A stretch of 64,000 nt of DNA, from NCBI RefSeq assembly GCF_026410285.1, contig NZ_JAPMLP010000012.1, forward strand, positions 1 to 64,000, read 5' to 3'. The position numbers and the translations under genes are program-made. The notes below the pieces were generated by a model. That model worked only from the letters and a program-made list of their open reading frames with translations. It was not told the DNA's origin and searched no databases. The stretch's first letter is position 1. Each line of letters opens with the position of its first letter. The DNA is from Sulfitobacter sp. F26169L. GTDB taxonomy: Bacteria; Pseudomonadota; Alphaproteobacteria; Rhodobacterales; Rhodobacteraceae. Shown in pieces: positions 36,290-51,209 of the stretch.

Positions 36290-37845
36290 TGTGGGTCTGT
36301 CTGTGCGCTGTGGGCCGCGCGCAGCTCGGTCTTGAGAATTTTATTCGCACCCGAAAGCGGCATCCAGTCAATGAAGCTGATGGATTTGGGGCATTTGTAA
36401 CCTGCAATGCGCGTGCGGCACTGCGCGATCAACTCTTCTGCGGTGACGCTCTGCCCGTCCATAAGAACAACCACTGCATGCACCGCCTCGCCCCACTGCG
36501 GATCAGGGATGCCGATCACGGCACAATCCTTTACCGCCGGATGGTCGGCAATGGCATTTTCAACCTCGCCGCAATAGACGTTTTCACCGCCGGAAATGAT
36601 CATATCCTTGATCCGGTCGACCAGAAACAGATAGCCGTCCGCGTCGAAATAGCCGCCGTCGCCGGTGTGATACCACCCGTCGACCAGGGCCTCGGCGGTC
36701 TTTTCGGGCATGTTCCAATAGCCTTGCATCACGTTGGGGCCGCGTACTGTGACCTCGCCGATCACACCGGTTGCACATTCACTGCCATCGGGTGCAGTGA
36801 TGCGCACATCGCAATGGGCCACGGGGCGCCCGACCGATGACAGCTTTTCCACAAGCGGATTGTCGGGATCATGGGCATCGGGGGTCAGAACGGAAATCAC
36901 CGGTCCGGTTTCGGTGGCACCATAGCCCTGATAAAACTGCACCCCCGGCAACGCGGCCATCACGCGGCGCAGCAACGCCAGTGACATCGGCGCCGCGCCA
37001 TAGGTAATGCGCTTCACCGAGCTTAGATCGAATTCGCCGAAATCGGGCGCGTTAAAGATCATATTCAACATGCTTGGCACCAGCATTGCATCGTTGATTT
37101 TCAACTCTTCAATCAGCCGCTGCGCCTCGCGCGGGTCGAACCGCTGCATCAGCACCGAATGGTTGTTGGACTGCGCAAGCGAATACACCCGCGCTCCTGC
37201 GGCCAGATGGAAAATCGGCGCGGATTTCAGAAAGCTCTGATCGCGCGGCATGTGATAGCTGGTAAGCGCGCCGGTTGAATTGGCGTGAAGGTTGGCATGG
37301 CTGAGCATGACCCCCTTGGAGCGCCCCGTTGTGCCGCCGGTGTAAAACAGCGCCGCCAGATCGTTGCCGCGTCTGTTCGAGCGCACATCGGGATCAGCTT
37401 GGGCCAGCAGGTCTTCGTAATCCAGAAAACCCTCGGGTGTCGGACCTTCGCCGATAAATACCAGATGTTTGCAAAACGCGCAGTGCGCCTTGATCTTTCG
37501 GGCCTGCGCCACATGCTCTTCGTCAACCAGCAGGACAGCGGGAGTGCAATCCTCCATACACTGGATCATCTCGGGGACGGCCCAGCGGTAATTTAGCGGC
37601 ACCATTACCGCATCGGCATAGAACGGACCGTAAAACGCCTCCATAAACCGTGCCGAATTCAGCGCGAGGATGCCGACCCTGTCACCTGCACCCACCCCCA
37701 GCGCGCGCAAGGCGCTGCCCTGTCTGCGCGCACGTTCTGCAAAATCGGCCCATGTCTGTGTGCGCCCCAGAAAGGTAACAGCTGGATCGTCGGGGTGGTT
37801 TCGTGCAACTTCCTCCAGAATGTCGGTCAGGCCTGCATCAGCCAT
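36286..37845 (-). CDS. Acyl-CoA synthetase (AMP-forming)
   Basis: A 519-aa ANL ligase, same length and motif layout as the one at 18378. YTGGTTGRSKG is at 168-178; YGATETGP, WYHTGDGGYFDADGYLFL, GENVYCGEVE and the C-terminal NKILK catalytic-lysine region follow. GGAGGGG before ATG 37845 decides the start, which overlaps the preceding ACAD gene by eight bases. It would activate the acid entering the paired ACADs encoded upstream in the same operon. Confidence 0.93.
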   Translation of the reverse strand: MADAGLTDILEEVARNHPDDPAVTFLGRTQTWADFAERARRQGSALRALGVGAGDRVGILALNSARFMEAFYGPFYADAVMVPLNYRWAVPEMIQCMEDCTPAVLLVDEEHVAQARKIKAHCAFCKHLVFIGEGPTPEGFLDYEDLLAQADPDVRSNRRGNDLAALFYTGGTTGRSKGVMLSHANLHANSTGALTSYHMPRDQSFLKSAPIFHLAAGARVYSLAQSNNHSVLMQRFDPREAQRLIEELKINDAMLVPSMLNMIFNAPDFGEFDLSSVKRITYGAAPMSLALLRRVMAALPGVQFYQGYGATETGPVISVLTPDAHDPDNPLVEKLSSVGRPVAHCDVRITAPDGSECATGVIGEVTVRGPNVMQGYWNMPEKTAEALVDGWYHTGDGGYFDADGYLFLVDRIKDMIISGGENVYCGEVENAIADHPAVKDCAVIGIPDPQWGEAVHAVVVLMDGQSVTAEELIAQCRTRIAGYKCPKSISFIDWMPLSGANKILKTELRAAHSAQTDPQ

Positions 37846-39007
37846 GATGCCCCTCCGTTTCGCCAAATGCGGCGGCGGCGGCGCGCGCCATATGGCCGCC
37901 ATAGCGCGCGATGTGGTGATCGGCATCGCCGAACGCAAAATCCGCAACAGCAACCCGTTTCACGAACTGCCCCAGCTGGAATTCTTCCGTAAGGCCGATG
38001 CCGCCGTGCATCTGCATCCCCTGCTGGCAAATCCGGCGCCCCTCTTCGGCGACGACAACTTTGGCCGCCGATACTGCCTGCTGGCGCGCGACGGTGTCGT
38101 CGCTGCCGGCCAGCGCACCTGCCTCGTACACCAGCGATTTCATATGTTCGTATTCCAGCACCATATCGGCCAGATGGTGTTGCAGCACCTGAAATTCGCC
38201 CAGTGTCTTGCCGAACTGGCGGCGGGTGCCGAGGTATTCCTTGGTGAGGCCGATCACTTTTTCCAGCGCACCAAGCGCCTCTGCGCAGATCGCGGCGGCG
38301 GCCAGATCGCTGACCGCTTCGATAATATCGTAACCGCCGCCCTGCGCACCCAACAGCGCGGTTGCGGGCAGCTTTACATCGTTGAAGGTAATATCGGCAG
38401 CGCCGCGCCCGTCAGTCAGCGCGTAGGCGGTGCGTTCCACCCCATCGGCATCCGCATCGACCAAATACAGCGACAGGCCCGATTGATCGTGGCGTTCCGT
38501 ATCGGGTGCGCGGGCCGAGACAATCAACAGGCCCGCATCATCGCCGCCGAACACAACCGATTTGGCGCCGTTCAGAACATATCCGTCGCCCTGCGCAGCG
38601 GCGCGGGTGTCAACATCTGCCAGATCATAGCGCGCATCCGGTTCACCAAACGCACAGGCCACTTTCAGCGCCCCTTCGGCGAGGGCGGGAAGGTATTGCG
38701 CCTGTTGCGCATCAGACCCCGCCAGCCGCAGCGCACCCGCGCCCGCCACCGCGGTGGACAGAAACGGCGCCTGCACCGCGTGTCGCCCGATCTGGATTGC
38801 GGCAACCATCACATCCGCCGATGATCCCGCCAGACCGCCGTGATCTTCGGGCACCGTCAGACCGATCAGGCCCGTTTCGGCGCAAGCCTGCCACAGTTTG
38901 TCGGCCTGTGCAGCCGTGCCGCCGCCCGCCGCTGTGTTATGGGCGGTGAACAGCTTTTCCAGACTGTCCGACAACATCCGCTGTTCGTCACTGTAACTGA
39001 AATCCAT
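37838..39007 (-). CDS. Acyl-CoA dehydrogenase (partner-subunit type)
   Basis: A 389-aa ACAD with a degenerate central motif: CAFGEPDARYDLADV stands where TEPxxGSD is expected, so FAD or substrate contacts differ. C-terminal TRRQFGKTLGEFQVLQHHLADM and MQMHGGIGLTEEFQLGQFVKR are kept. It lies 12 bases after a canonical ACAD, the arrangement of heterotetrameric ACADs such as PimC/PimD and steroid ChsE pairs. Same pairing as 1632/700 at the left end, suggesting two heteromeric enzymes in the window. Confidence 0.9.
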   Translation of the reverse strand: MDFSYSDEQRMLSDSLEKLFTAHNTAAGGGTAAQADKLWQACAETGLIGLTVPEDHGGLAGSSADVMVAAIQIGRHAVQAPFLSTAVAGAGALRLAGSDAQQAQYLPALAEGALKVACAFGEPDARYDLADVDTRAAAQGDGYVLNGAKSVVFGGDDAGLLIVSARAPDTERHDQSGLSLYLVDADADGVERTAYALTDGRGAADITFNDVKLPATALLGAQGGGYDIIEAVSDLAAAAICAEALGALEKVIGLTKEYLGTRRQFGKTLGEFQVLQHHLADMVLEYEHMKSLVYEAGALAGSDDTVARQQAVSAAKVVVAEEGRRICQQGMQMHGGIGLTEEFQLGQFVKRVAVADFAFGDADHHIARYGGHMARAAAAAFGETEGHHG

Positions 39008-39019
39008 GGTGTGTGTCCT

Positions 39020-40207
39020 TTACGATCCGAGCAGGGTTTTCGAGATGATGTTTTTCTGCACCTCGGTCGAGCCGCCATAAACGGTGGTTTTGCGCCGGTC
39101 AAAATAGGTGGGGGCGCGCGCGCGGACGTGTTGCGGGCCAACAGGTGTCCCGTTCCACGACGGTTCCATCGCATCCGACTGCCATGGCAATGCGTATGGG
39201 CCAACCGCCTCCATCTGCAATTCGACACTGCGCTGTTGCAACTGTGATCCCTTGATCTTGAGGATCGAGGGGAACATGCCGCTATCGCCGCCGGTGGTCA
39301 GCATCCGCAGGTTCGTCAACTCAAGCGCGCGGCGGTTGATCTCCAGCCGCGCAAGGCGCGCCTGAAACAGCGGATCCTCAATCAGCGGTTTGCCATTGCG
39401 CCGCTCTGTCAGGGCGATCTTGTGCAGCAGGGCCAGATCGGCCTTGATCATGCCGATGCCTGCAATGCCCGTGCGCTCGTTGCTCAGCAGGAACTTGGCG
39501 TAATCCCAGCCTTTATTCTCTTCGCCCACCAGATTTTCGACCGGAACGCGCACGTTCTCCAGAAACACCTCGTTCACGATGTGGCTGCCGTCCAGCGTGT
39601 GGATCGGGCGGACGCTGACACCGGGGGATTTCATATCGATCAGCAGGAATGAAATGCCGAGCTGCTTTTTGGCATCAGGATCGGTGCGCACAAGGCAAAA
39701 GATCAGGTCGGCGTATTGCGCATAGGAGGTCCAGATTTTCTGGCCGTTCACAACATATTCGTCCCCCTCACGCACCGCAGAGGTGCGCAGCGAGGCAAGA
39801 TCCGACCCCGCGCCCGGTTCGGAGAAGCCCTGACACCAGAAATCATCACTCGACAGGATGCGCGGCAGGTATTTCGCCTTCTGCGCGTCGGTGCCGTAAG
39901 TATAGATCACAGGCCCGACCAGCCGGATACCGAACGGCATCACACGCGGCGCGCCAACACCGGTAAGTTCTTCGTCAAAGATATTCAGTTGCACAGGTGT
40001 CCAGCCACAGCCGCCGTATTCCTTGGGCCAGTGCGGGGCGATCCATCCCTTTTTCGCCAGAATTTTCTGCCAGAGGATATAATCGTCCCGTTTAAAGCGG
40101 GTTTCGGTGCGGGCTTTCTCTGCCAGTTCCTGCGGAAACTCGGCGTCAAGAAAAGCGCGCACTTCGTTTCTGAAATCGATGTCTTCGCTGCTGTGGGTCA
40201 AATCCAT
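39020..40207 (-). CDS. Acyl-CoA dehydrogenase (catalytic-subunit type)
   Basis: A 395-aa ACAD. QGFSEPGAGSDLASLRT is the flavin motif; GQKIWTSYAQYADL, and near the C-terminus RKTTVYGGSTEVQKNIISKTLLG, are typical of the large subunit of paired ACADs. The start ATG 40207 is the first in frame after the operator-containing gap. First gene of the operon ACAD-ACAD-ligase-thioesterase-permease. A MarR gene lies 136 bases upstream on the same strand, with operator site C between them. Confidence 0.92.
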   Translation of the reverse strand: MDLTHSSEDIDFRNEVRAFLDAEFPQELAEKARTETRFKRDDYILWQKILAKKGWIAPHWPKEYGGCGWTPVQLNIFDEELTGVGAPRVMPFGIRLVGPVIYTYGTDAQKAKYLPRILSSDDFWCQGFSEPGAGSDLASLRTSAVREGDEYVVNGQKIWTSYAQYADLIFCLVRTDPDAKKQLGISFLLIDMKSPGVSVRPIHTLDGSHIVNEVFLENVRVPVENLVGEENKGWDYAKFLLSNERTGIAGIGMIKADLALLHKIALTERRNGKPLIEDPLFQARLARLEINRRALELTNLRMLTTGGDSGMFPSILKIKGSQLQQRSVELQMEAVGPYALPWQSDAMEPSWNGTPVGPQHVRARAPTYFDRRKTTVYGGSTEVQKNIISKTLLGS

Positions 40208-40259
40208 TGCGTATCCTTCACTCGGCCGGAACAGGCGGCGCCACGCGCCCGCCATTTAG

Positions 40260-40271
40260 TTCGTGTGCGAA
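40260..40271. promoter_or_regulatory. Candidate operator TTCGTGTGCGAA (site C)
   Basis: Arms TTCG and CGAA with a four-base centre, preceded by TTTAG (read on minus: CGAACTAAA), 53 bases before the ACAD start at 40207 and 73 bases after the MarR stop. It is the least symmetrical full copy of the shared motif. Its place between marR and the ACAD operon suggests repression of that operon by the neighbouring MarR protein. Confidence 0.5.
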
Positions 40272-40343
40272 CAGGTTACGCAAAGTTTCAGGATACACAA
40301 ACGGAAAATTCCATGTTCGGGGTCAGCGCATCACAAGTGCGTT

Positions 40344-40787
40344 TTACTTGGTCTGGCCCAGCTCCGCGGCAAGGTTCGATCTGACCTTGCGCAGCAGGTT
40401 CGACATCTGCACCACTTCGTCCTCACTCAGACCCGCTGTCGCGATATCGTTCAGGGTTGTGAACTCGCGGACCATATGGTCCAGCAATCCGGCTGCCGAC
40501 TCTGTCAGCCATACATTTTTGGCACGCCGGTCGCGGGTATCGGCACTGCGGCGGACCCATCCGCGTGTTTCCAACCTGTCCAGCAGGCCGCTGACCGTCA
40601 CCGTGCCCACGTTCATGCGCGCGGCAAGCTCCGTCTGGGACAGCCCGTCTTCGAGAAAAAGCTGGTTCAGTACATACGCCTGCGCATGGGTCAGCCCGTG
40701 CGGCCGCATCAGGTTTTCAAAAATTATGCCGCGAAACCGGGCGATGTCACTGAATAAAAAGCCGATTAACCGGTCCCGTTTTTCCAT
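40344..40787 (-). CDS. MarR-family transcriptional regulator
   Basis: A 147-aa winged-helix protein. LSQTELAARMNVGTVTVSGLLDRLETRGWV (about 46-75) is the recognition region and DTRDRRAKNVWLTE the wing. Paralogue of the MarR protein at 14782. It has its own 241-base upstream gap and sits before the ACAD operon, whose promoter carries site C. Start ATG 40787 is the natural MarR N-terminus, although its ribosome site is weak. Ligand probably an acyl-CoA of the pathway (inference). Confidence 0.91.
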   Translation of the reverse strand: MEKRDRLIGFLFSDIARFRGIIFENLMRPHGLTHAQAYVLNQLFLEDGLSQTELAARMNVGTVTVSGLLDRLETRGWVRRSADTRDRRAKNVWLTESAAGLLDHMVREFTTLNDIATAGLSEDEVVQMSNLLRKVRSNLAAELGQTK

Positions 40788-41028
40788 AGTGTTGCACTGT
40801 ACTCCTGAAGGCACGGTCACCAACCGCAAGCATCCGTATCTGTAACAACGTCCTGCAATAAAAGATACAAGAACAACAAAGGACAAAGCACCCCGCCTAG
40901 GTGGTGGTCCGCAATACATACTGAATGGCAAAAACCGGTGCAAGATCGTGCGACCGCGGAGGGGCGGCTATAATCTAACCTTTATTAACATAATCCTAGT
41001 TATGGACCCATAGCAATTGAATGGTTTT

Positions 41029-41664
41029 TTACGCTGCCGGCTCTTCTACTTCCAGACCCATCCCCCGCAGAAATAAGGTTTGCGCTTGCCGGATCAGGCG
41101 GTTCGCATCGAAAGCAGCGTCATTTTCAACCCCGAGAAAGAACTTCGCCTGTGCTTCGTAATCAGCATAATGCTGCGTTACCGCCCAGAGTTCCATCTGG
41201 AATACCATCGGATCAACCGGCTTTATCTTACCCATGCTGATCCAGCTTTCGATCACTTCACAGGCACGCGCGGTTGCGTCTTTTGACTGCTCCCAATGAC
41301 GCCGCAAAACGGGGGCACCGCGCGCCACCTCCTGCGAGAAAAACCGCGTTTCCATCGGGTGTTCGAGAGCATAGAGGATTTTGGTTTCGATATAGCGCGA
41401 GATCACCGCCTTGGGATCATCGCGCTGGTCAATGTCGAAAAACAGCGATTCCCATTTCGCCACAATTGACGTGACAATTTCTTCGTACAAATGTTCCTTG
41501 CTGGTGATGTAGTAAAACAGCGTCGGCTTTGACAGACCGGCTGCTTTTGCAATCGCTTGGGTGGATGTCCCCTGTAGGCCATTAAGGGAAAACTCCCTCA
41601 GCGCGGCGCGGAAGATTTTGGTCTGTACCTGTCTGCGCTTGTCCGATGTCAGGGGGGGCGTCAT
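41029..41664 (-). CDS. TetR-family regulator, RutR-like
   Basis: A 211-aa TetR repressor. N-terminal HTH TSTQAIAKAAGLSKPTLFYYITSKEHLY at about 33-60. The C-terminal domain matches E. coli RutR closely in pattern: GAPVLRRHW, MGKIKPVDP and WAVTQHYADY correspond to GAPLLMDEL, SGKLAPIDP and WASTQHYADF, the last being part of the pyrimidine-binding pocket. It ends a nine-gene minus-strand operon, overlaps the RidA gene by ATGA, and probably binds the TGACCGATCGGTCA palindrome at 48781. Effector likely a pyrimidine or similar heterocycle (inference). Confidence 0.9.
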   Translation of the reverse strand: MTPPLTSDKRRQVQTKIFRAALREFSLNGLQGTSTQAIAKAAGLSKPTLFYYITSKEHLYEEIVTSIVAKWESLFFDIDQRDDPKAVISRYIETKILYALEHPMETRFFSQEVARGAPVLRRHWEQSKDATARACEVIESWISMGKIKPVDPMVFQMELWAVTQHYADYEAQAKFFLGVENDAAFDANRLIRQAQTLFLRGMGLEVEEPAA

Positions 41665-42125
41665 GTAGTCTCCGGCAGATAGGCAGTGGCTTCGACTTCA
41701 ATCAAAATATCGGACGATGGCATCATGCCGCTGACCTCGACAACAGTTGAAACAGGCGCCACGTCAGGAAAAAACAGCCGCCGCACGCGGTTGAAGTTCG
41801 GAAAATCCGACAGGTTTTTGAAATACTGCACCAGCTTGAAAACATCGCCCATCTCGCCGCCCGCGTCTTCGATCATCGCTTTGATGCGGTCAAAGACAAA
41901 CCATGTCTGCGCTTTTAGCGGCCCCTCTTTGTAATCGCTCGAAAACTCGCCCGTTTCGCCCAAGGCAGCGCGCGCGTGATCGGGCAGATCGCCGTAACCG
42001 GTGATGATTTTGCCAGCCGCAGGATCAACGGCAATCACCCCGGACATGAATATAAAATCGCCACGGCGCTGCCATGCGGTATATTTCGCCAGCGGCTGCG
42101 CGCCTTTGCTGCTTGCTTGGGTCAT
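41661..42125 (-). CDS. RidA/YjgF-family protein
   Basis: A 154-aa RidA-superfamily protein, slightly longer than the usual 125-130. RidA proteins hydrolyse reactive enamines and imines to carbonyl plus ammonia; RutC acts in uracil breakdown. Visible: FIFMSGVIAVDPAAG near the N-terminus, VFKLVQYFKNLSDFPNFN, and the closing VSTVVEVSGMMPSSDILIEVEATA. The usual catalytic Arg motif reads APVSTVVEV without Arg, so deaminase activity is uncertain. Coupled by ATGA overlaps to both neighbours; an imine made by the flavin oxidase of this operon would be a logical substrate. Confidence 0.87.
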   Translation of the reverse strand: MTQASSKGAQPLAKYTAWQRRGDFIFMSGVIAVDPAAGKIITGYGDLPDHARAALGETGEFSSDYKEGPLKAQTWFVFDRIKAMIEDAGGEMGDVFKLVQYFKNLSDFPNFNRVRRLFFPDVAPVSTVVEVSGMMPSSDILIEVEATAYLPETT

Positions 42126-42715
42126 ATGCTTTTCATTCTTTTTTCCACATGGTCCAGAAACCGTGTTCCAGCGGCGCGGTCAACATGGTTCATATTATAC
42201 AACTGGCACCAGACATAGCGGCATTTGCGGCCGAACAACGGGCGCAAGCCGCGCTTGAAAAAGCTGCGCACCGGATCGCGGATCAGGAAAATCCACCACT
42301 TTGGCGATCCCGATGTCGTGACCACGGCGATCAGTTTCTTGTCCTGCATTTTGGCGATGGGCCGCTGGTTGTTGGCGGCAGCCACTTCAAATGTGATGCC
42401 GGGCAGCCAGACCCGCTCGAACCAGCCTTTCAGCATGGCAGGAAGGCCGTAATAATATGTGGGAAAGACAAACACCAAACCCTCGGCCCATTGCAGTTTC
42501 TCGACGTGATCGCGCACGGCGGCGATATTCTGTTCGGTATCGCTCAGGTAGGTGTTCCATTCTTCGGTGCTCAGCACAGGGTTGAACCCCATCCGGTAGA
42601 GATCAAGCGACTGAACGTCGTGCCCCTGCGCCTTGAGGGTTTCAACCGTGCGATTGAACAGGGCAAAGCCCAGACTTTCCGTACTGGGATGTGAAAAAAC
42701 CACAAGTATCCGCAT
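42122..42715 (-). CDS. NQO1/MdaB-like flavodoxin-fold NAD(P)H oxidoreductase
   Basis: A 197-aa flavodoxin-like oxidoreductase. ILVVFSHPSTESLGFALF (phosphate-binding start), VFVFPTYYYGLPAMLKGWFERVW and the glycine/serine segment VVTTSGSP match the NAD(P)H:quinone oxidoreductase family, which uses FAD or FMN. Coupled by ATGA to the RidA gene. Role within the operon unknown: possibly reduction of an intermediate, as flavin reductases serve RutA, or quinone protection. No RutA-like monooxygenase is present. Confidence 0.87.
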   Translation of the reverse strand: MRILVVFSHPSTESLGFALFNRTVETLKAQGHDVQSLDLYRMGFNPVLSTEEWNTYLSDTEQNIAAVRDHVEKLQWAEGLVFVFPTYYYGLPAMLKGWFERVWLPGITFEVAAANNQRPIAKMQDKKLIAVVTTSGSPKWWIFLIRDPVRSFFKRGLRPLFGRKCRYVWCQLYNMNHVDRAAGTRFLDHVEKRMKSI

Positions 42716-42742
42716 TTGCCCTGCTCCTTTCCTATCCTGCGC

Positions 42743-43738
42743 TTACTTGCGCAGATCCATACCAAGGCCCTGATTTACAAAGCTGTAATTCGCGACCAGA
42801 TCCAGATCGACCGATCCTTTATCAACAATCCCCGAATCCTCCATCGCCTTGAGGAACTTGGCGGTGCGCGCAGGGTCCATGGCGCCGATGCCCTTTTCCA
42901 GCGCAAGGCCGGAATCCACGATGCCGAGCGCTTTGAGGTATTCGACCTCCTTGGCGAGCTTTTCGTCGGTCATTTCAGGGTTGGCTTCCTTGATCAGATC
43001 AAAGGCGGGCTGGTTGTCACCGTACATGAAATTATACCAACCGATGATCGACGCCTCGACAAAGCGATTCACCAGATCGGGGTTTTCCTCGATCATCTGG
43101 GTGCGCGCCTCGATTGTGGTTGAATAGGTGTCCCAGCCGTAATCGGCCAGCAGGAAGATATCGGTTTCTACGCCTTCATTGGCGGCGTAGATCGGCTCGG
43201 CTGTGGCAAAGGCCTGCTGAACCGCTTTTTCGTCCACCAGAAACGGGCCGATATTGTAGGCATATGGCGCAAGGTTTTCATCCTTGAAGCCGTGGTTCAC
43301 CGTCATCCACTTCCAGAAGCTGAACTGGGCATCTTTCCCGATGTAGATTTTCGGCGCGTTGGCGACATCGGCAAAATCCTTGTACACCCCTTTGTGCGCC
43401 AGAATGGCCTGCGGGTCTTTCTGGAAGATCGACGCGACGACCGTGACCGGAATACCGTTGCGCACGCTGTCAAAGGCTTGCAGCATATTGCCGCCCATTA
43501 GAAAGTCGAGCTTGCCTGCGGGCAGCATGGGACGGTTGTTGACTTGTGGTCCGCCCATCTGGATGTCGACCTCAAGCCCGTATTTTTCATATGTTCCGTC
43601 GGCAACGGCCTGATAATACCCGCCGTGTCCCGCCTGGGCGAGCCAGTTGGTGCCGAATGTCACCTTGTCCTGTGCAAACGATACTGTCGCTGCAAATGTG
43701 GCAACGACACTGGCCGCTGCGATCCTGAATAGTTTCAT
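42743..43738 (-). CDS. ABC transporter substrate-binding protein (NMT1/THI5-like, NitT/TauT type)
   Basis: A 331-aa periplasmic protein with a signal peptide (MKLFRIAAASVVATFAATVS, cleavage after SFA near residue 22). The mature start VTFGTNWLAQAGHGGYYQAVADGTYEKYGLEVDI is typical of the NMT1/THI5-like fold that binds thiamine pyrimidines, riboflavin, taurine and similar small molecules. AAGGAG eight bases before ATG 43738 beats the GTG at 43747. It belongs with the permease and ATPase encoded upstream in the operon, though separated from them by two enzyme genes. Confidence 0.9.
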   Translation of the reverse strand: MKLFRIAAASVVATFAATVSFAQDKVTFGTNWLAQAGHGGYYQAVADGTYEKYGLEVDIQMGGPQVNNRPMLPAGKLDFLMGGNMLQAFDSVRNGIPVTVVASIFQKDPQAILAHKGVYKDFADVANAPKIYIGKDAQFSFWKWMTVNHGFKDENLAPYAYNIGPFLVDEKAVQQAFATAEPIYAANEGVETDIFLLADYGWDTYSTTIEARTQMIEENPDLVNRFVEASIIGWYNFMYGDNQPAFDLIKEANPEMTDEKLAKEVEYLKALGIVDSGLALEKGIGAMDPARTAKFLKAMEDSGIVDKGSVDLDLVANYSFVNQGLGMDLRK

Positions 43739-43767
43739 GTCTCTCACTCCTTGTTGGTGTTCTCTTG

Positions 43768-45147
43768 TTACCTTTGACGCGCCATATCAGCCGTCCAGCC
43801 CCGTGTTTTTCCGGGGTTCATCAGGCCGTAGGGGTCGGCCTGTTTTTTGAAATCGATTTGTGATGTGTCGATTTCCTTCATGCCACCGTCTTCGATGGTG
43901 ATGACGTGCGGGTCGTAGATGGTGCAACCGTCCGCCTCGATCTCGGCGATTGCCTTGTAGATGTCATCGCGCTTTTGCTGGCGGATGATGGGCAGGGCAA
44001 ACACCTGCACCTCGCCGTGCATCCGCGCAATCTCGTGGTGCCAGAACATCTGGTCGCCGTAGCGTTCCATCTGTTTGGCCACTACCGATGGGTCAATCGG
44101 CTGCGGATAGGCAACCTGCAAATAGGTCCAGTCGGGATCGGCCTTCAGCGCCATCAGGGTTGTGTGGTTCCACCCGCATTCAAACGCGGGCGGCAGGCCG
44201 GCGTCGTGGATTTCCTCCAGTGTCATGGCAAACGGTACACGGCCCTTGCGCCGCTCGACCTCGGCGGTAAAGCGTTCCATATCATCCGGCGCGACCATGG
44301 CAAAAACCGCATCGCGATCATCGGGAAACAGCTCTCCGAACTTGGCGTAATACTGCGAGAACCGCCGCTCGACCACGGTCAGCAGATAGCAATCAAGACC
44401 CGCATCCAGCATATCAAGGCTGAATTGCAGCGCGTCGATATAGCCGTCAAACAGCGCGGCGGTGTGTATCCAGTCGGTCAGCTTGGTCAGTGCAACCTCG
44501 AGTTCCAGAATGATGCCGTTGGTGCCATAGGCGTGCTGGACCTTCTGGATGTCCGGCCCTTCGAGGGTGATGATCTGCGGCTCTTCCTCAATGGTCAGCA
44601 CCTTGACCATACGCACATTGCCATCATCGCGCAGCACGCCGTGGCGCAGCGATCCGATACCGCCCGATCCGCCCGACAGGAACCCGCCGATGGTCGCGAT
44701 TTTGCGGGTGGAGGGGTACATCAGCAACTGCTGGCCGGTTTCGGCGCAGGCATCGTCCAGGCGGGCGATGCGTGCACCCGCTTGCGTACGCGCCCAGCCT
44801 TCGCCGATCTCGATGATCTTGTTCAGGCCGGTAATGTCCAGCACGACGCCGCCTTCCATCGGCACACACTGGCCATAGTTGCCTGTACCCCCACCGCGGA
44901 TCGTGACGGGAATGGCATGGCGTGCGATGGCTGCGGCCACGCGCACGACCTCGTCCTGCGTGCGCGGGGTCACGATCACATCGGCGCGCTTGTCCGCAAG
45001 CTGCTCTTTCAGAAGGGGGCTGTACCAGTAATAATCCAGCGACCGCGCCTTGATCACGCCCGCGTCGGTGCTGGTGCGGATACCTTCGATATCAGCCAGA
45101 AACCCTGACAGATCGTGCTGCGATTCCGTTTTAGTCTCTACGCTCAT
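43768..45147 (-). CDS. FAD-linked oxidase (VAO/PCMH fold)
   Basis: A 459-aa flavoprotein. The PCMH FAD-binding domain covers about 50-225: IVTPRTQDEVVRV, PVTIRGGGTGNYGQ (80-93, the pyrophosphate loop) and IGGFLSGGSGGIGSLRHG. The C-terminal half is the substrate domain and ends GLMNPGKTRGW. No signal peptide or BBE-type Cys is evident. VAO-family members oxidise alcohols, 2-hydroxy acids or amines. With RidA downstream, amine-to-imine oxidation is an attractive guess, not shown. Overlaps the amidohydrolase gene by ATGA. Confidence 0.89.
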   Translation of the reverse strand: MSVETKTESQHDLSGFLADIEGIRTSTDAGVIKARSLDYYWYSPLLKEQLADKRADVIVTPRTQDEVVRVAAAIARHAIPVTIRGGGTGNYGQCVPMEGGVVLDITGLNKIIEIGEGWARTQAGARIARLDDACAETGQQLLMYPSTRKIATIGGFLSGGSGGIGSLRHGVLRDDGNVRMVKVLTIEEEPQIITLEGPDIQKVQHAYGTNGIILELEVALTKLTDWIHTAALFDGYIDALQFSLDMLDAGLDCYLLTVVERRFSQYYAKFGELFPDDRDAVFAMVAPDDMERFTAEVERRKGRVPFAMTLEEIHDAGLPPAFECGWNHTTLMALKADPDWTYLQVAYPQPIDPSVVAKQMERYGDQMFWHHEIARMHGEVQVFALPIIRQQKRDDIYKAIAEIEADGCTIYDPHVITIEDGGMKEIDTSQIDFKKQADPYGLMNPGKTRGWTADMARQR

Positions 45148-46310
45148 GCCAAGATTTCTCCATTTCGGTATATGTGCCTGACGGCTGAAGGGCGGGAAAT
45201 CGCATCGTGCAGATCGCTTGCCTGCACTGCGATGAAATTTGCAGGCGCGCCAACGGTAAGCGGTGTGACCGCCGCACCGTCACACCAGCGCGCAGCCCCT
45301 TGCGTGATCGCATCGATCCACGCGGCGGGTTCAAGCTGCGCCAGATGCACACCGCCGCGATAGACATCAAACAGATCGTAATCGCCGTAGGGAAAGAACA
45401 CATCACACACGTTGTCAGAGGCAATTATCACATCGACCCCCGCCAGCGCTGCCTCTTTCATCGGGGCAATGCCGCGCAGGCGCGGGGTGCGATCCGGCGC
45501 GTTGTCCTGTAAATAGCTGTTGGTGGTGGGCAGCACCACAAGCCCGACCTGCGCCGCCGCGGCACGTTCCAGAACGGCCTTCACCTCATCCTGCGGACGG
45601 ACGGACAGGGAACAGGCGTGACCACATAAAACCGAAGGCCCGTCGCGGCGCTGTGCGGCCTGATCCACGATCAGATCAAACCCTTGCGCCTCACTCTCCA
45701 GCCCTTCGTCAACGTGGAAATCAAGCGGCAGGTCGTGGGCATCCGACAGGGCGAACACATCCGCAACCTTGTCTGCCAACCCGTCATTGCGATAGATGAA
45801 CGCGCCGAAAACACCGCCGGTTTTGCGCACGTGGGCGGCAATCTGTTCGCCCGATTCAGCCAGCAGATCAATCGGAGACAGCGAGGCCAGTTGCAGATCG
45901 ACGCGGCCGCGCCATTCGCGCGCAAGATCATCCATCACCCCCCACGCCACGGGCACTTCAGCGGTGTTCCAATCAACATGCGTGCGCATCGCGGCAACGC
46001 CGTGGCGATACGCCTTTTCCATGGCCAGACTTGCGCGGGCATACAGATCATCGGCGGTCCAGTTGGATTTATCCGCCTGCATCCGCTCTATCGCGTCAAA
46101 CAGGGATACCGCACCGGCACCTGTGCGCCGGGTTGTGAATGTTTTGTCCAGATGCACATGCGCATCGGCCATCAGCGGCAGGATCAGGGTGGCGGCGGGG
46201 GCGGCAGACGGGGTGAGCGCGGCAATCTTTCCGCCCGAAAGGCGCAGATCAACCACATCATCCGCCCCCCCCAGTCGAACACCTGTCAGCTGTGCATCAG
46301 GTCCCATCAT
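45144..46310 (-). CDS. Cytosine-deaminase-like amidohydrolase
   Basis: A 388-aa metal-dependent hydrolase. The metal site begins DAHVHLDKT (49-57, His51 and His53), then MRTHVDWN, LDFHVDEG with the next His and catalytic Glu, LCGHACSL and IASDNVCD with the metal Asp. This HxHxDK, H, H-E, D layout is that of cytosine/isoguanine/creatinine deaminases. GGGAAAG precedes tandem ATG codons at 46310, and the start overlaps the permease stop. It probably deaminates or opens a heterocyclic ring imported by the operon's ABC system. Confidence 0.9.
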   Translation of the reverse strand: MMGPDAQLTGVRLGGADDVVDLRLSGGKIAALTPSAAPAATLILPLMADAHVHLDKTFTTRRTGAGAVSLFDAIERMQADKSNWTADDLYARASLAMEKAYRHGVAAMRTHVDWNTAEVPVAWGVMDDLAREWRGRVDLQLASLSPIDLLAESGEQIAAHVRKTGGVFGAFIYRNDGLADKVADVFALSDAHDLPLDFHVDEGLESEAQGFDLIVDQAAQRRDGPSVLCGHACSLSVRPQDEVKAVLERAAAAQVGLVVLPTTNSYLQDNAPDRTPRLRGIAPMKEAALAGVDVIIASDNVCDVFFPYGDYDLFDVYRGGVHLAQLEPAAWIDAITQGAARWCDGAAVTPLTVGAPANFIAVQASDLHDAISRPSAVRHIYRNGEILA

Positions 46311-47161
46311 CTTTCCCGCTTGATCTCGCTCTCGTGCCATTTGCCGAGGACAAGTTTGGACAGAAACGACGTGGCAAGGAAAATGGCGATGCCCAGCAGC
46401 GATACAAGCAGCAGTGCCGCAAACATCTTCGGTATTTCGTTGCGAAAGCTTGATTCCAGAATACGCGATGCAAGGCCGGTGTTCTGCCCCGCGCTGCCTG
46501 CCACAAATTCGGCTACAACCGCACCGATCAGCGCCAGCCCACCGGCAATCTTCAGCGCCGCCATAAAATAGGGCAGCGCGCTTGGCACCAGCAAAAAGCG
46601 CAGGCGCTGCCACGGGGTGGCGTGGTAGAGGCTAAACATATCACGCAAATTGTGATCCGCACTGCGGATGCCGATAACGGTGTTTGACAGGATCGGAAAG
46701 AACGCCACAATCCACGCGCAAATCAGCAGCGCGGAAAACGTGCTGTCCACATAGATCAGGATCAGCGGCGCAATCGCGACAATCGGCGTCACCTGAAGAA
46801 TGACCGCAAAGGGAAACAGGCTCATCTCGACGGTGCGCGACAGGGCAAACAACATGCCCAGCAACACGCCGCCGATCATCGCCAGTGCCAGGGACATCAG
46901 CGTCAGCTTTACCGTGAACCACGCCGAACCGAGCAGCGACGGCCCCTCGACCCAGAGGGTTTTGAGGATCAGACTGGGCGCGGGAATAAGATAGTGGGGC
47001 ACTTCGTTATACCACACCAGAAACTCCCACAGCAGCACCGCAATCACCAAAGCGCCGAGCGGCATAATCACCTGCATCCGCTTGTCGCGCCGCTCGCGTT
47101 GAAGCTGTGACGCGTTCATCATCACGGGCGTGTCTTCGTCGTGGATTTCAATGGTCGACAT
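46307..47161 (-). CDS. ABC transporter permease (NitT/TauT type)
   Basis: A 284-aa inner-membrane permease with six helices. The EAA loop reads AVTPWQRLRFLLVPSALPYFMAALKIAGG-like, here ATPWQRLRFLLVPSALPYF near residue 190, the site that contacts the ATPase. The start lies inside the ATPase gene (14-base overlap). Partner of the 47148 ATPase and the 42743 binding protein. Confidence 0.93.
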   Translation of the reverse strand: MSTIEIHDEDTPVMMNASQLQRERRDKRMQVIMPLGALVIAVLLWEFLVWYNEVPHYLIPAPSLILKTLWVEGPSLLGSAWFTVKLTLMSLALAMIGGVLLGMLFALSRTVEMSLFPFAVILQVTPIVAIAPLILIYVDSTFSALLICAWIVAFFPILSNTVIGIRSADHNLRDMFSLYHATPWQRLRFLLVPSALPYFMAALKIAGGLALIGAVVAEFVAGSAGQNTGLASRILESSFRNEIPKMFAALLLVSLLGIAIFLATSFLSKLVLGKWHESEIKRER

Positions 47162-47936
47162 TGGTCATCGTCCTCTCTAGCGCTTGGGTGACGGTGCGTG
47201 CGTGTTCGCCGAATTCGGCAGATGTGCGGTATTCATCCGTACGCCCCACGGCGCGCGGCAGCTCGATCTCTTCGATCACGCGGCCCGGCCTTGCGCCCAT
47301 CAGCACAACGCGGCTGGACATATAGACCGATTCAAAAACACTGTGGGTCACGAATATGACCGTAAGGTTGTTTTCTTCCCACAGGCGCAGCACATCATTG
47401 TTCAGCTTGAAGCGGGTGATTTCATCCAATGCCGCAAACGGCTCGTCCAGCAGCAGCAGCTTGGGGTTTGTCACCAGCGCGCGCGCAATCGACACCCGCA
47501 TTTTCATCCCGCCCGACAATTCGCGCGGATAGGATTTATGAAACTTTGACAATCCCACCTGCGCCAATACTTCGGTGATCCGCGGAGTTGCATCCCTGCG
47601 CGACACGCCCTGCAAGCGCAGCGGCAGAAACACATTGTCGAAAACATTGGCCCACGGCATCAGCGTGGCATCCTGAAACACATAGCCGATATCGCCGGTT
47701 TCACCGCCCTGCCCTGCGGGATGGCCGTTTACGTCAATTTCGCCCGCCGAGACAGACAGCAAACCCGCAATCATCTTCAGCGCTGTTGATTTCCCGCACC
47801 CCGACGGGCCGAGGAAGGACACAAACTCACCCTCGGAGATTGTCAGCGACATGTCCTTGATCGCCACGGTGCCATTGCCAAAAATCTTGTGGACATTGCG
47901 AACGTCTATCAATGCGTCTACGGGCTGCGCTGCCAT
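47148..47936 (-). CDS. ABC transporter ATP-binding protein (NitT/TauT type)
   Basis: A 262-aa ABC ATPase. Walker A GPSGCGKST (43-51), Q-loop YVFQDATLMPW, signature LSGGM (140-144) followed by KMRVSIARAL, Walker B LLLLDEP (160-166) and H-loop FVTHSVFE. These match SsuB/TauB/ThiZ-like ATPases. It is the second gene of the operon, five bases after the creatininase-family gene, and energises uptake with the overlapping permease. Confidence 0.95.
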   Translation of the reverse strand: MAAQPVDALIDVRNVHKIFGNGTVAIKDMSLTISEGEFVSFLGPSGCGKSTALKMIAGLLSVSAGEIDVNGHPAGQGGETGDIGYVFQDATLMPWANVFDNVFLPLRLQGVSRRDATPRITEVLAQVGLSKFHKSYPRELSGGMKMRVSIARALVTNPKLLLLDEPFAALDEITRFKLNNDVLRLWEENNLTVIFVTHSVFESVYMSSRVVLMGARPGRVIEEIELPRAVGRTDEYRTSAEFGEHARTVTQALERTMTNVDH

Positions 47937-47940
47937 TTAT

Positions 47941-48741
47941 CTACCACTCCGGTTCGTTGTTAAGCCACGCAGGGTCAGCGCGATCAATTTCTGCAAACAC
48001 TTCGACCAGCCGGTCGGTCACATAGTCCAGCGTTTCACGGCCCTTTTGTGCGGTTGCGATGCTGGCGTCACCGCAGGCTCCTGCCGGATGCAGATCCTGT
48101 GCCTGCCAGCCGAGCTTGGCCCCGCCGCCGATGCGGATATGTGAAAAATCACGGATCAGCGTATCTGTCAGCGGGCGGAAATTGCGCGCCTTTTCCATTT
48201 TCACCAGATCAGGTGCCATTGCCAGCATGATAGAGGTTTCCAAATCACCGGCGTGAATACCGACTGTCTGTTCATCTTCGGAATACAGCCCGTCCGGCAG
48301 GCCAAAGCCGAACCAGTTCACCGAAAAGGCGAGCATGTTGTGCCGGATACGCAATTCGCGCACCACCATATCCATTGTGCTGATCTGGCCGCCGTGACTG
48401 TTGAGCAGCACAATCTTGCGCACCCCGCTGCGCGCCACAGATGCGCCTATTTCGGTCCAGACCCGTGCAAGCGTTTCCCCGCTGAGCGTCAGCGTACCGG
48501 GATAACGGGAATGTTCGTCACTTTTACCGACCGGCTGCGTGGGCAAAAACAAGACCGGCGAATCTTCGGGCAGCTTTTCGGCCAGCAGCTTGGTCAGGCC
48601 ATCCGCCACTGCCGCATCAACACACAGAGGCAAATGCGGCCCGTGTTGTTCAATTGCGCCAACCGGTAACACCGCAATGATCCGGTCATGATCAAGCTGC
48701 GCAAATTCCTCACTCGTGTAGTTCGCCCAAAAATGTTCCAT
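47941..48741 (-). CDS. Creatininase-family amidohydrolase
   Basis: A 266-aa metal-dependent amidase, first gene of the RutR-type operon. Metal ligands by comparison with creatininase: Glu31 and His33 in GAIEQHGPHLP, Asp42, His116 in NSHGGQ, and Glu168 in HAGDLETS. The family opens cyclic amides (creatinine, formamidopyrimidine derivatives) and includes cofactor-maturation hydrolases. GAAGG sits five bases before ATG 48741. Acting with the amidohydrolase at 45144 it points to ring opening of a small N-heterocycle. Confidence 0.92.
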   Translation of the reverse strand: MEHFWANYTSEEFAQLDHDRIIAVLPVGAIEQHGPHLPLCVDAAVADGLTKLLAEKLPEDSPVLFLPTQPVGKSDEHSRYPGTLTLSGETLARVWTEIGASVARSGVRKIVLLNSHGGQISTMDMVVRELRIRHNMLAFSVNWFGFGLPDGLYSEDEQTVGIHAGDLETSIMLAMAPDLVKMEKARNFRPLTDTLIRDFSHIRIGGGAKLGWQAQDLHPAGACGDASIATAQKGRETLDYVTDRLVEVFAEIDRADPAWLNNEPEW

Positions 48742-48780
48742 GACTGCCTTCGTTAGTTAATTCGTTATCTTTACCCAAGC

Positions 48781-48795
48781 TGACCGATCGGTCAA
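48781..48795. promoter_or_regulatory. RutR-box-like operator overlapping a -35 element
   Basis: TGACCGATCGGTCA at 48781-48794 is a perfect 14-bp palindrome. Read on minus it is TTGACCGATCGGTCA, close to the E. coli RutR consensus TTGACCAnnTGGTCAA. TTGACC itself can serve as a -35 box, with AAAGAT 17 bases downstream as a weak -10, 40 bases before the creatininase start. Binding here would block the promoter of the operon that ends in the rutR-like gene. Confidence 0.72.
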
Positions 48796-48839: not shown

Positions 48840-51209
48840 TCAGTAATCCAGCGTGCGCCCGGGGGTGAGGCCGTTCACGGCAGCAACAATCGACGCGGCA
48901 TCGATGCCGAAATGACTGTACAGGTCCTGAATGGTGCCGGTTTGGCCGAAATGTTCGACCCCCAAGGGAATGGTCCGGTGCCCCCGGACAGAGCCGAGCC
49001 ACGACAGCGTGGCCGGATGCCCGTCAATCACCGTCAGAATACTACACTCGCGCGGGAGGTCTTTTAGCAGGGTTTCGATATGTGATTGCGCATTTTCGTT
49101 ACCACCGGCACGCGCACGGCGCGCGGCAGTCCAGCCCGCATTAAGGCGGTCCGCTGATGTAACGGCCAGAACCCCCACATCACGGCGACTGCCCGCGATA
49201 CGCCCTGCCGCGGCGATAGCTTCGGGGGCAACAACGCCTTGATATGCAATCACGATCTCGCAGTTCGGGCCGGGTTTGCGCAGCCAATACGCACCATCGA
49301 TTGCACCGCGCCTGAAATCATCGTCCACCCGTTTTCCCGGCTGGGAAATCGGATTTGTCGACAGGCGCAGATAAACCGATCCGCCGGTTTCCTCGCGCAG
49401 CCACGTCCGCTCGTCCGGGTCGTTGCTGCCGTCGCGTTGCAGGTAATCGAATGCCCATTCCATAATCACGGCCAACTCATCCGCGAAAGCAGGTTCGAAC
49501 GCGGCCAGCCCGTCCTGGGACATGCCGATCAGGGGGGCGGCTATGGACTGGTGCGCGCCGCCTTCGGGCGCCAGCGTCACACCGGACGGGGTGCCGACAA
49601 TCATAAAGCGCGCGTCCTGATAACACGCGTAATTCAGCGCATCCAGACCGCGCGACACAAACGGATCATAGACCGTGCCAATAGGGATCAGCCGTTTGCC
49701 GAACAGCGAATGTGACAGCCCCGCCGCCGCCAGCAGCAAAAACAGGTTCATCTCGGCGATGCCCAGTTCGATGTGCTGGCCTTCGGGGGTAAACTCCCAT
49801 TTCGCGGTCGAGGGGATGTTTTCGGCCTTGAACGTGTCTTCCTGCGTTTCGCGCGCAAACAGTTTACGCCGGTTCACCCACGGCCCCAGATTGGTGGTGC
49901 CTGTCACATCGGGCGAGGTGGTCACAATCCGCGCGGCAAGCGTGCTGTCCCCTTTGGACAGATCATCAAGGATTTTGCCAAACGCCATCTGGGTCGAAAG
50001 CTCGCGATCGGTCGAGATTTCAATCGCGGGGACTACCAGCTTGTCATCATCGAAACGGCGCGCACCATCGGCAAAGAACACCACGTTGTCCAGAAACTGC
50101 CGCAGCGCGTCAGGGTCATCAACGGTTGCGAACCTGTCCCATTCCTGCCCCTCGGGAACGCCCATGTGGGTTTGCCAATCGGCCATCTGGGTTTTGTTCA
50201 TCAGGCCGCCGTGGTTGTCCTTGTGCCCTGCAATCGGCGTGCCCCAGCCCTTGATCGTGTAGGCCAGAAAGCAGACCGGCCTGTCGTGATCAATGGCGGC
50301 AAAAGTCTCGGCCATGGTTTCCACACAGTTGCCGCCAAGGTTCTCCATCAACTCTGCCAGTTCGTCGTCGTCACGCTTTTCAATCAGGGCCGTTACATCG
50401 CCCTGATCCCCCAGCGCATCCATCAGCCGTTTGCGCCAGACAGCGCCGCCCATAAACGTCAGCGCGGAATACAACTGGTTGGGGCAGTTATCGATCCACG
50501 CGCGCAGCTTTTCCCCCCCGGGTTCGGCAAAGGCTGCCCGTTGCAATGCACCGTATTTGATGCGCACCACGTCCCATCCGAAGGCGTCAAAAATCTGCTC
50601 GACCCGTTTGAACAGCCCTTCGCGCACCACCCCGTCCAGCGATTGGCGGTTGTAATCGATGATCCACCAGCAGTTGCGCAACCCGTTTTTCCAGCCTTCC
50701 TGCAAGGCTTCATAGATGTTGCCCTCGTCCAGTTCGGCATCCCCGACCAGCGCCACCATGCGGCCCATCTTGCGCCCGCTGTCCCATGATTTTGCCTCGA
50801 TGTAGTCCTGCACGATCGACGCAAACGACGTAACCGCCACACCCAGCCCGACCGAGCCGGTCGAGAAATCGACATCGTCGATATCCTTGGTGCGCGACGG
50901 ATAGCTTTGCACACCGCCGAACCCGCGAAAGTTCTCCATTTTTTCGCGGGTCTGGTTGCCCATCAGATATTGCATCGCATGAAAGACGGGCGAAGCATGG
51001 GGTTTGACCGCCACACGGTCTTCGGGCCGCAATGTCTGGAAATAGAGCGCTGTCATAATCGACACCATAGATGCCGAGGACGCCTGATGCCCGCCCACCT
51101 TGATCCCGTCCTCTTTGGGGCGGATGTGGTTTGCATTATGGATCATCCAGTGTGACAGCCAAAGCAGGCGCTGTTCGATAGTTTTCAGGGGCGTATGTGC
51201 TGACGGCAT
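48840..51209 (-). CDS. Homodimeric E1 / transketolase-like 2-oxoacid dehydrogenase (AceE-like)
   Basis: A 789-aa thiamine-diphosphate enzyme of the single-chain E1 type; E. coli AceE has 887. The TPP/Mg motif GDAELDEGN begins at 156 with IIDYNRQSLDG at 183-193; KVGGHQASSASMVSIMTALYF and FTPEGQHIELGIAEMNLFLLLAA follow the AceE/transketolase pattern. The N-terminal E2-docking stretch of AceE is largely lacking and no E2 or E3 gene is nearby, so it may borrow chromosomal partners or act as a decarboxylase or ketolase. Divergent from an Lrp/AsnC regulator, suggesting amino-acid-derived 2-oxoacids. Confidence 0.88.
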   Translation of the reverse strand: MPSAHTPLKTIEQRLLWLSHWMIHNANHIRPKEDGIKVGGHQASSASMVSIMTALYFQTLRPEDRVAVKPHASPVFHAMQYLMGNQTREKMENFRGFGGVQSYPSRTKDIDDVDFSTGSVGLGVAVTSFASIVQDYIEAKSWDSGRKMGRMVALVGDAELDEGNIYEALQEGWKNGLRNCWWIIDYNRQSLDGVVREGLFKRVEQIFDAFGWDVVRIKYGALQRAAFAEPGGEKLRAWIDNCPNQLYSALTFMGGAVWRKRLMDALGDQGDVTALIEKRDDDELAELMENLGGNCVETMAETFAAIDHDRPVCFLAYTIKGWGTPIAGHKDNHGGLMNKTQMADWQTHMGVPEGQEWDRFATVDDPDALRQFLDNVVFFADGARRFDDDKLVVPAIEISTDRELSTQMAFGKILDDLSKGDSTLAARIVTTSPDVTGTTNLGPWVNRRKLFARETQEDTFKAENIPSTAKWEFTPEGQHIELGIAEMNLFLLLAAAGLSHSLFGKRLIPIGTVYDPFVSRGLDALNYACYQDARFMIVGTPSGVTLAPEGGAHQSIAAPLIGMSQDGLAAFEPAFADELAVIMEWAFDYLQRDGSNDPDERTWLREETGGSVYLRLSTNPISQPGKRVDDDFRRGAIDGAYWLRKPGPNCEIVIAYQGVVAPEAIAAAGRIAGSRRDVGVLAVTSADRLNAGWTAARRARAGGNENAQSHIETLLKDLPRECSILTVIDGHPATLSWLGSVRGHRTIPLGVEHFGQTGTIQDLYSHFGIDAASIVAAVNGLTPGRTLDY

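Follow-up and report, generated by a model that had tools for sequence, protein, structure and literature searches.

A conserved gene cluster in Sulfitobacter predicted to import and catabolise pterin- or folate-type pteridines

Results

A nine-gene run behind a palindrome

The window analysed here is a whole stretch of 64,000 nucleotides from Sulfitobacter sp. F26169L (NZ_JAPMLP010000012.1). Nine genes lie on its minus strand, from 48741 down to 41029, and all nine open reading frames were recovered with Pfam-type profiles, together with the domains that an earlier sequence-only reading had named. The run opens with a creatininase-family hydrolase (Crn, P0001, 47941..48741; PF02633, 1.3e-75), followed by the ATPase (P0002, 47148..47936; ABC_tran PF00005, 5.7e-36) and the permease (P0003, 46307..47161; BPD_transp_1 PF00528, 8e-22) of an ABC importer, an amidohydrolase that is a probable pterin deaminase (P0004, 45144..46310; Amidohydro_3/_1) and an FAD-dependent VAO-fold oxygenase or oxidase (P0005, 43768..45147; FAD_binding_4). 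It continues with an NMT1/THI5-like periplasmic binding protein (P0006, 42743..43747, starting at GTG 43747 or ATG 43738; PF09084, 3e-22), a flavodoxin-fold NAD(P)H oxidoreductase (P0007, 42122..42715; Flavodoxin_2 PF02525, 6.7e-35), a Rid-family protein that lacks the catalytic arginine (P0008, 41661..42125; Ribonuc_L-PSP PF01042, 5e-17) and a RutR-like TetR regulator (P0009, 41029..41664; TetR_N and TetR_C_3, 2.1e-30).

The earlier statement that most genes are joined by overlapping stop and start codons holds for five of the eight junctions (-14, -1, -4, -4 and -4), but not for the other three, which are spaced by 4, 20 and 27 bases; the value at the permease/amidohydrolase junction hinges on the start codon picked for P0004 (46310 or 46307). 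If begun at GTG 46613, the P0004 reading frame would extend into the permease gene. The run had also been drawn to end at 48795, which is in fact the edge of a palindrome, TTGACCGATCGGTCA (48781..48795, minus strand), that stops 39 bases short of the creatininase start at 48741 and that we predict to be a RutR-like operator.

A possible tenth member, an AceE-like thiamine-diphosphate enzyme (48840..51209, minus strand; aceE model, 179.4 bits vs a cut-off of 859.9), lies 98 bases upstream of the creatininase gene on the same strand. On the other side, at 37838-40943, a MarR-type regulator sits beside two acyl-CoA dehydrogenases whose similarity to the pimeloyl-CoA dehydrogenase pair stays below cut-off. 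A riboswitch was rejected, as no Rfam model matched at gathering score between 40300 and 52000, and scans for promoters (9 promoter-like sites vs 5.3 in shuffles) and terminators (14 vs 11.2) were uninformative.

The gene set is conserved and patchily distributed

A scan of genome contigs with the amidohydrolase returned 45 loci. All nine genes were found in identical order and strand in three of them (L031, L033 and L034), seven of the nine in L032, and all nine again in a Variovorax genome (L120, G241), rearranged and with the deaminase and Rid genes on the opposite strand. The recurrence of the full set, collinear in three loci and rearranged in L120, places the arrangement beyond chance. 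We then defined as type-1 a set of 19 loci, picked by amidohydrolase or flavoprotein similarity, as opposed to 45 others (these two lists contain neither L035 nor L150 and none of the short loci L001-L030 and L076-L118). Among these 19, several of which are clipped by contig or stretch ends, the amidohydrolase was present in 19, the FAD protein in 18, the ATPase in 16, the permease in 15, the creatininase and the regulator in 14 each, the binding protein and the oxidoreductase in 13 each and the Rid protein in 12. As in the window, the AceE-like gene adjoins the cluster in 7 of the 19 (L032, L034, L036 and L126-L129, 67-83% identity; three AceE matches at 23-26% were excluded from the count), with a divergent orientation in L127.

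Within the family of the window genome, the amidohydrolase matched 63 of 198 genomes at 1e-40 but reached at least 46% identity in only eight of the 198, its own genome counted, and the single congeneric genome listed had no match. This patchy distribution fits a mobile catabolic cluster. FAD proteins 60-80% identical to P0005 occur on nine plasmid records; a Pseudosulfitobacter plasmid copy adjoins an integrase and repABC, and an Alloyangia plasmid record carries all nine functions. In the literature searched, mostly without subscription journals, we found neither the cluster as a whole nor its regulator described, and no paper that combines RutR, creatininase, cytosine deaminase and RidA.

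Related clusters of other composition were also seen. In sister clusters of Rhodobacterales, Rhizobium and Phreatobacter (L130, L131, L074, L153 and L041-L045), the amidohydrolase, named cytosine deaminase by NCBI, lies with a 6V42-type flavoprotein and an oxidoreductase, and in most also with an importer and a creatininase. A third group, from marine Rhodobacterales (L050-L068 and L132), combines creatininase, amidohydrolase and flavoprotein, in many cases with a TauD-type dioxygenase, a DUF2165 protein and an SBP_bac_5 binding protein. Enterobacterial clusters (L150 and L151, Klebsiella pneumoniae and Pantoea) hold a Rid protein of the P0008 type (55-63%), an importer, a flavoprotein and a creatininase, and this Rid type is found in 11 records of the plasmid collection.

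The amidohydrolase is probably a pterin deaminase

P0004 shares the superfamily fold and the metal ligands with E. coli CodA; its metal-ligand and catalytic residues H53, H55, H201, E204, H233 and D301 align to CodA and are invariant in 19 sequences. P0004 differs from CodA in that the D314 and W319 columns hold an Asn (N302) and a Phe (F307), which are likewise invariant in the 19; with the metal ligands kept, this argues that P0004 is not a plain cytosine deaminase. It also scored under all NCBIfam cytosine deaminase cut-offs (304.4/403, 106.5/483 and 89.1/438 bits), and cytosine deamination was rejected as its activity. The sister groups reached the cut-off of NF005759 ('cytosine deaminase'), which P0004 and the Variovorax protein did not.

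Among the matches listed for pterin, folate and lumazine degradation, a single source on pterin deaminase genes was relevant (PMC9513972). It describes the cloning of a 399-residue deaminase from Variovorax sp. F1 that acts on pteroic acid as well as on folic acid (for the latter, Km 0.28 mM, kcat 10.1 per s), with a downstream endoribonuclease gene that served for primer design. We searched the 5' primer given in that text, with up to two mismatches, in 61 Variovorax genomes, and obtained 45 matches in 32 of them, only five of which (G223, G241, G200, G230 and G203) were at this gene, at the start codon of an amidohydrolase of the L037 type. In G230 (L119), where the primer had one mismatch, the protein starts with MKLEAVR and has 399 residues, and its gene overlaps, at the stop codon, a Rid ('endoribonuclease') gene. 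For the 3' gene primer as printed, the nearest site was in L118 (four mismatches), and the printed endoribonuclease primer had no match in eight Variovorax loci (at least seven mismatches). Primer, length and neighbour together suggest that this Variovorax gene is the F1-type pterin deaminase gene.

P0004 is 43-45% identical to most Variovorax proteins of the primer-matched type. The amidohydrolase tree (61 rows) did not place the window clade (11 rows, support 99/99) and a Variovorax-Rhodoferax clade (6 rows, 99/92) as sisters, but a single clade uniting window and Variovorax proteins was not rejected (p-AU 0.297; this test omitted L075, L041, L043, L044, L052 and L124, and the group tested did not include L056 and L071, the amidohydrolases of which lie with the others). 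From this sequence kinship, P0004 is probably a pterin deaminase (EC 3.5.4.11). The folate degradation route of Variovorax sp. F1 (PMC9513972) resembles the present system in its amidohydrolase family and in the Rid gene that immediately follows the deaminase gene, and the same nine genes occur in Variovorax L120; it differs in that the accessible part of that source describes only a deaminase and a carboxypeptidase G, whereas the window deaminase lies within a transporter/flavoprotein cluster. Variovorax genomes often hold a second, distant amidohydrolase, which in L123 (G258) is part of a separate importer/creatininase/flavoprotein cluster that also has a RutR-like regulator. The atrazine plasmid pADP-1 of Pseudomonas sp. 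ADP (L149) carries, close to its cyanuric acid genes atzD/atzE, a 36% identical amidohydrolase accompanied by an ABC importer of its own.

The flavoprotein is related to a folate flavin oxygenase

The closest solved relative of P0005 in both sequence and fold is 6V42 (444 residues, 40% identical), a full-length match that stands above other VAO-fold proteins. 6V42/6V43 is a flavin oxygenase involved in folate catabolism, and an activity of that kind is predicted for P0005; no paper on 6V42/6V43 was found in the literature searched. 6V42 itself belongs to a sister flavoprotein group with the Phreatobacter and Rhizobium clusters, whereas the flavoproteins of the window and the Variovorax clusters form one clade (100/99, tree of 50 rows).

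The regulator keeps the RutR pocket and a RutR-like operator

P0009 scored below the cut-offs of the RutR NCBIfam equivalogs (136.1/368 and 105.1/230 bits). According to PMC10891134, RutR contacts uracil directly or by water through W77, W167, Q171, Y97 (the water-mediated contact) and, from the partner subunit, Q179. All five are kept in P0009, where W71, Y91, W160, Q164 and Q172 align to W77, Y97, W167, Q171 and Q179; in seven relatives of P0009 the first Trp is kept in 7/7, the second Trp and the Tyr in 6/7 and each Gln in 5/7.

The palindrome TTGACCGATCGGTCA is the sole TGACCNNNNGGTCA in the window, against 0.07 expected. Its core ACCRANYGGT, which was defined only after the sites had been seen, occurs within 300 bases upstream of Crn in 5 of 15 type-1 loci (shuffle mean 0.08), or 4 of 14 without the window (0.05), the remaining ten of the 15 lacking the exact core, and in none of 22 other clusters. 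What we take to be the RutR consensus core, ACCANNTGGT, was present in three of the 14 relatives (0.04 in shuffles) and in none of the 22 other clusters, and Variovorax L120 and L122 have TTGACCGATTGG upstream of the creatininase gene. Genome-wide, TTGACCNNNNGGTCA marks no regulon (6 sites vs 5 for the reversed control). In L126 it is the AceE-like gene, not the creatininase gene, that has the exact operator core upstream, suggesting that the AceE-like gene belongs to the operon in some species. With pocket and predicted operator both kept, the link to RutR is stronger than the sequence-only reading could state.

The system thus shares the regulator fold, the uracil pocket residues and the operator half-site with E. 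coli RutR/rut, but the rut operon has other enzymes and the window genome no RutA above cut-off: its one RutA match scored 21.5 bits vs 498.3. A Rut-type route was therefore rejected, in keeping with the sequence-only reading.

Creatininase, Rid protein and peptidases

P0001 meets the Pfam creatininase model and stays below the NCBIfam cut-offs for creatininase (101.3/235 bits) and MftE (126/172 bits). PMC9478397 describes a creatininase-family enzyme, BrbF, which cuts the formamide of a GTP-derived aminopyrimidinone. BrbF, which we liken to P0001 by annotation, differs in being biosynthetic and in acting on a riboflavin precursor. By this analogy, P0001 could hydrolyse either a ring amide, opening the ring, or a formamide.

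P0008 has 3lyb as a structural relative (2.3e-55). When the arginine column was set by alignment to 2dyy and 6izh, Ser126 fell at the position equivalent to TdcF Arg105, and a serine is present in 8/8 relatives. According to PMC4433059, about 10% of RidA proteins have serine at this position, and the Rid4-Rid7 groups, which are without the arginine, appear not to hydrolyse imines. RidA-type imine hydrolysis by P0008 was rejected on these grounds, and with it the RidA-assisted imine release that had been proposed for the operon.

No carboxypeptidase G-type peptidase was found at 1e-50 among ten of the 12 M20 proteins of the genome; L138 and L144, whose N-termini look DapE- and PepT-like, were omitted from the scoring. 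This result tips the balance slightly to free pterins or fragments of folate as substrates. The M20 gene adjoining L031 is closest to YxeP.

Discussion

We favour the reading, to which we give a probability of about 0.75, that the predicted operon imports and catabolises pterin- or folate-type pteridines, a substrate class that is then probably known and not new. Gene set, conservation, kinship of P0004 and P0005 to pterin and folate enzymes, pocket and operator were computed, and from them we infer the substrate, the inducer and all steps after deamination. The ABC importer would take up a pterin, which may be folate, a fragment such as 6-carboxypterin or free pterin, and P0004 would strip its 2-amino group, so that the isocytosine edge of the pterin becomes a uracil edge and the product is a lumazine. 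Because deamination would create this uracil edge, a lumazine is the obvious candidate inducer: the RutR-like repressor P0009 would bind the deaminated product via its kept uracil pocket and leave the palindrome before the creatininase gene, allowing expression of the operon. P0005 may then oxygenate or oxidise the deaminated ring or its side chain, P0001 may hydrolyse a cyclic or formamide-type amide, and P0007 and P0008 may deal with reduced or reactive intermediates; this order, from flavoprotein to creatininase to oxidoreductase and Rid protein, is a guess.

The sequence-only reading is upheld in outline, for uptake of the substrate, its deamination, its oxidation by a flavin enzyme and the involvement of a creatininase-family hydrolase. 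Its substrate, an unknown N-heterocycle, is not supported: enzymes akin to the amidohydrolase and to the flavoprotein have already been linked to pterin/folate catabolism, which comes close to the outcome that the sequence-only reading had named as its own refutation, orthologues of the amidohydrolase and creatininase pair in a characterised pathway. Its full route, in which a small cyclic amide or amine is sensed by a RutR-type pyrimidine regulator, oxidised by a flavin enzyme to an imine and hydrolysed with the help of RidA, agrees with the domain content and with a pocket that suits uracil itself; we regard it as very improbable, given the serine in place of the imine-hydrolysis arginine and the specific kinship to the pterin deaminase and the folate flavin oxygenase. 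Less remote, yet still unlikely, is that only the ancestors of the operon acted on folate and that it now serves a different pyrimidine, fused or substituted, for which a purine, isoxanthopterin, a modified cytosine or a fragment of riboflavin (lumichrome, for instance) would be candidates. The moderate identity of P0004 to the Variovorax proteins, its own clade of 11 rows and the lack of a carboxypeptidase G-type match among the M20 proteins scored would suit such a shift, as do the several sister groups whose different regulators and transporters make substrate shifts likely; against it, the flavoprotein clade unites the window with the Variovorax clusters, the gene set is the same as in Variovorax and active-site residues are held in common.

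The authors of PMC9513972 call folate and pterin breakdown beyond the deaminated stage elusive. On the pteridine reading, the predicted operon would be a full candidate gene set for this later breakdown in marine and soil bacteria, pointing to enzymes for assay and to a regulator that would read lumazine via a uracil pocket. We offer more tentatively, at somewhat under even odds, the wider proposal that this widespread and partly plasmid-borne operon may encode complete catabolism of the pteridine ring, through deamination, flavin oxygenation and creatininase-type ring opening, and may be switched on by the first RutR-family regulator to sense a lumazine in place of uracil; a Rid protein from a group that has no known activity would serve later steps, joined in some members by an AceE-like thiamine-diphosphate enzyme.
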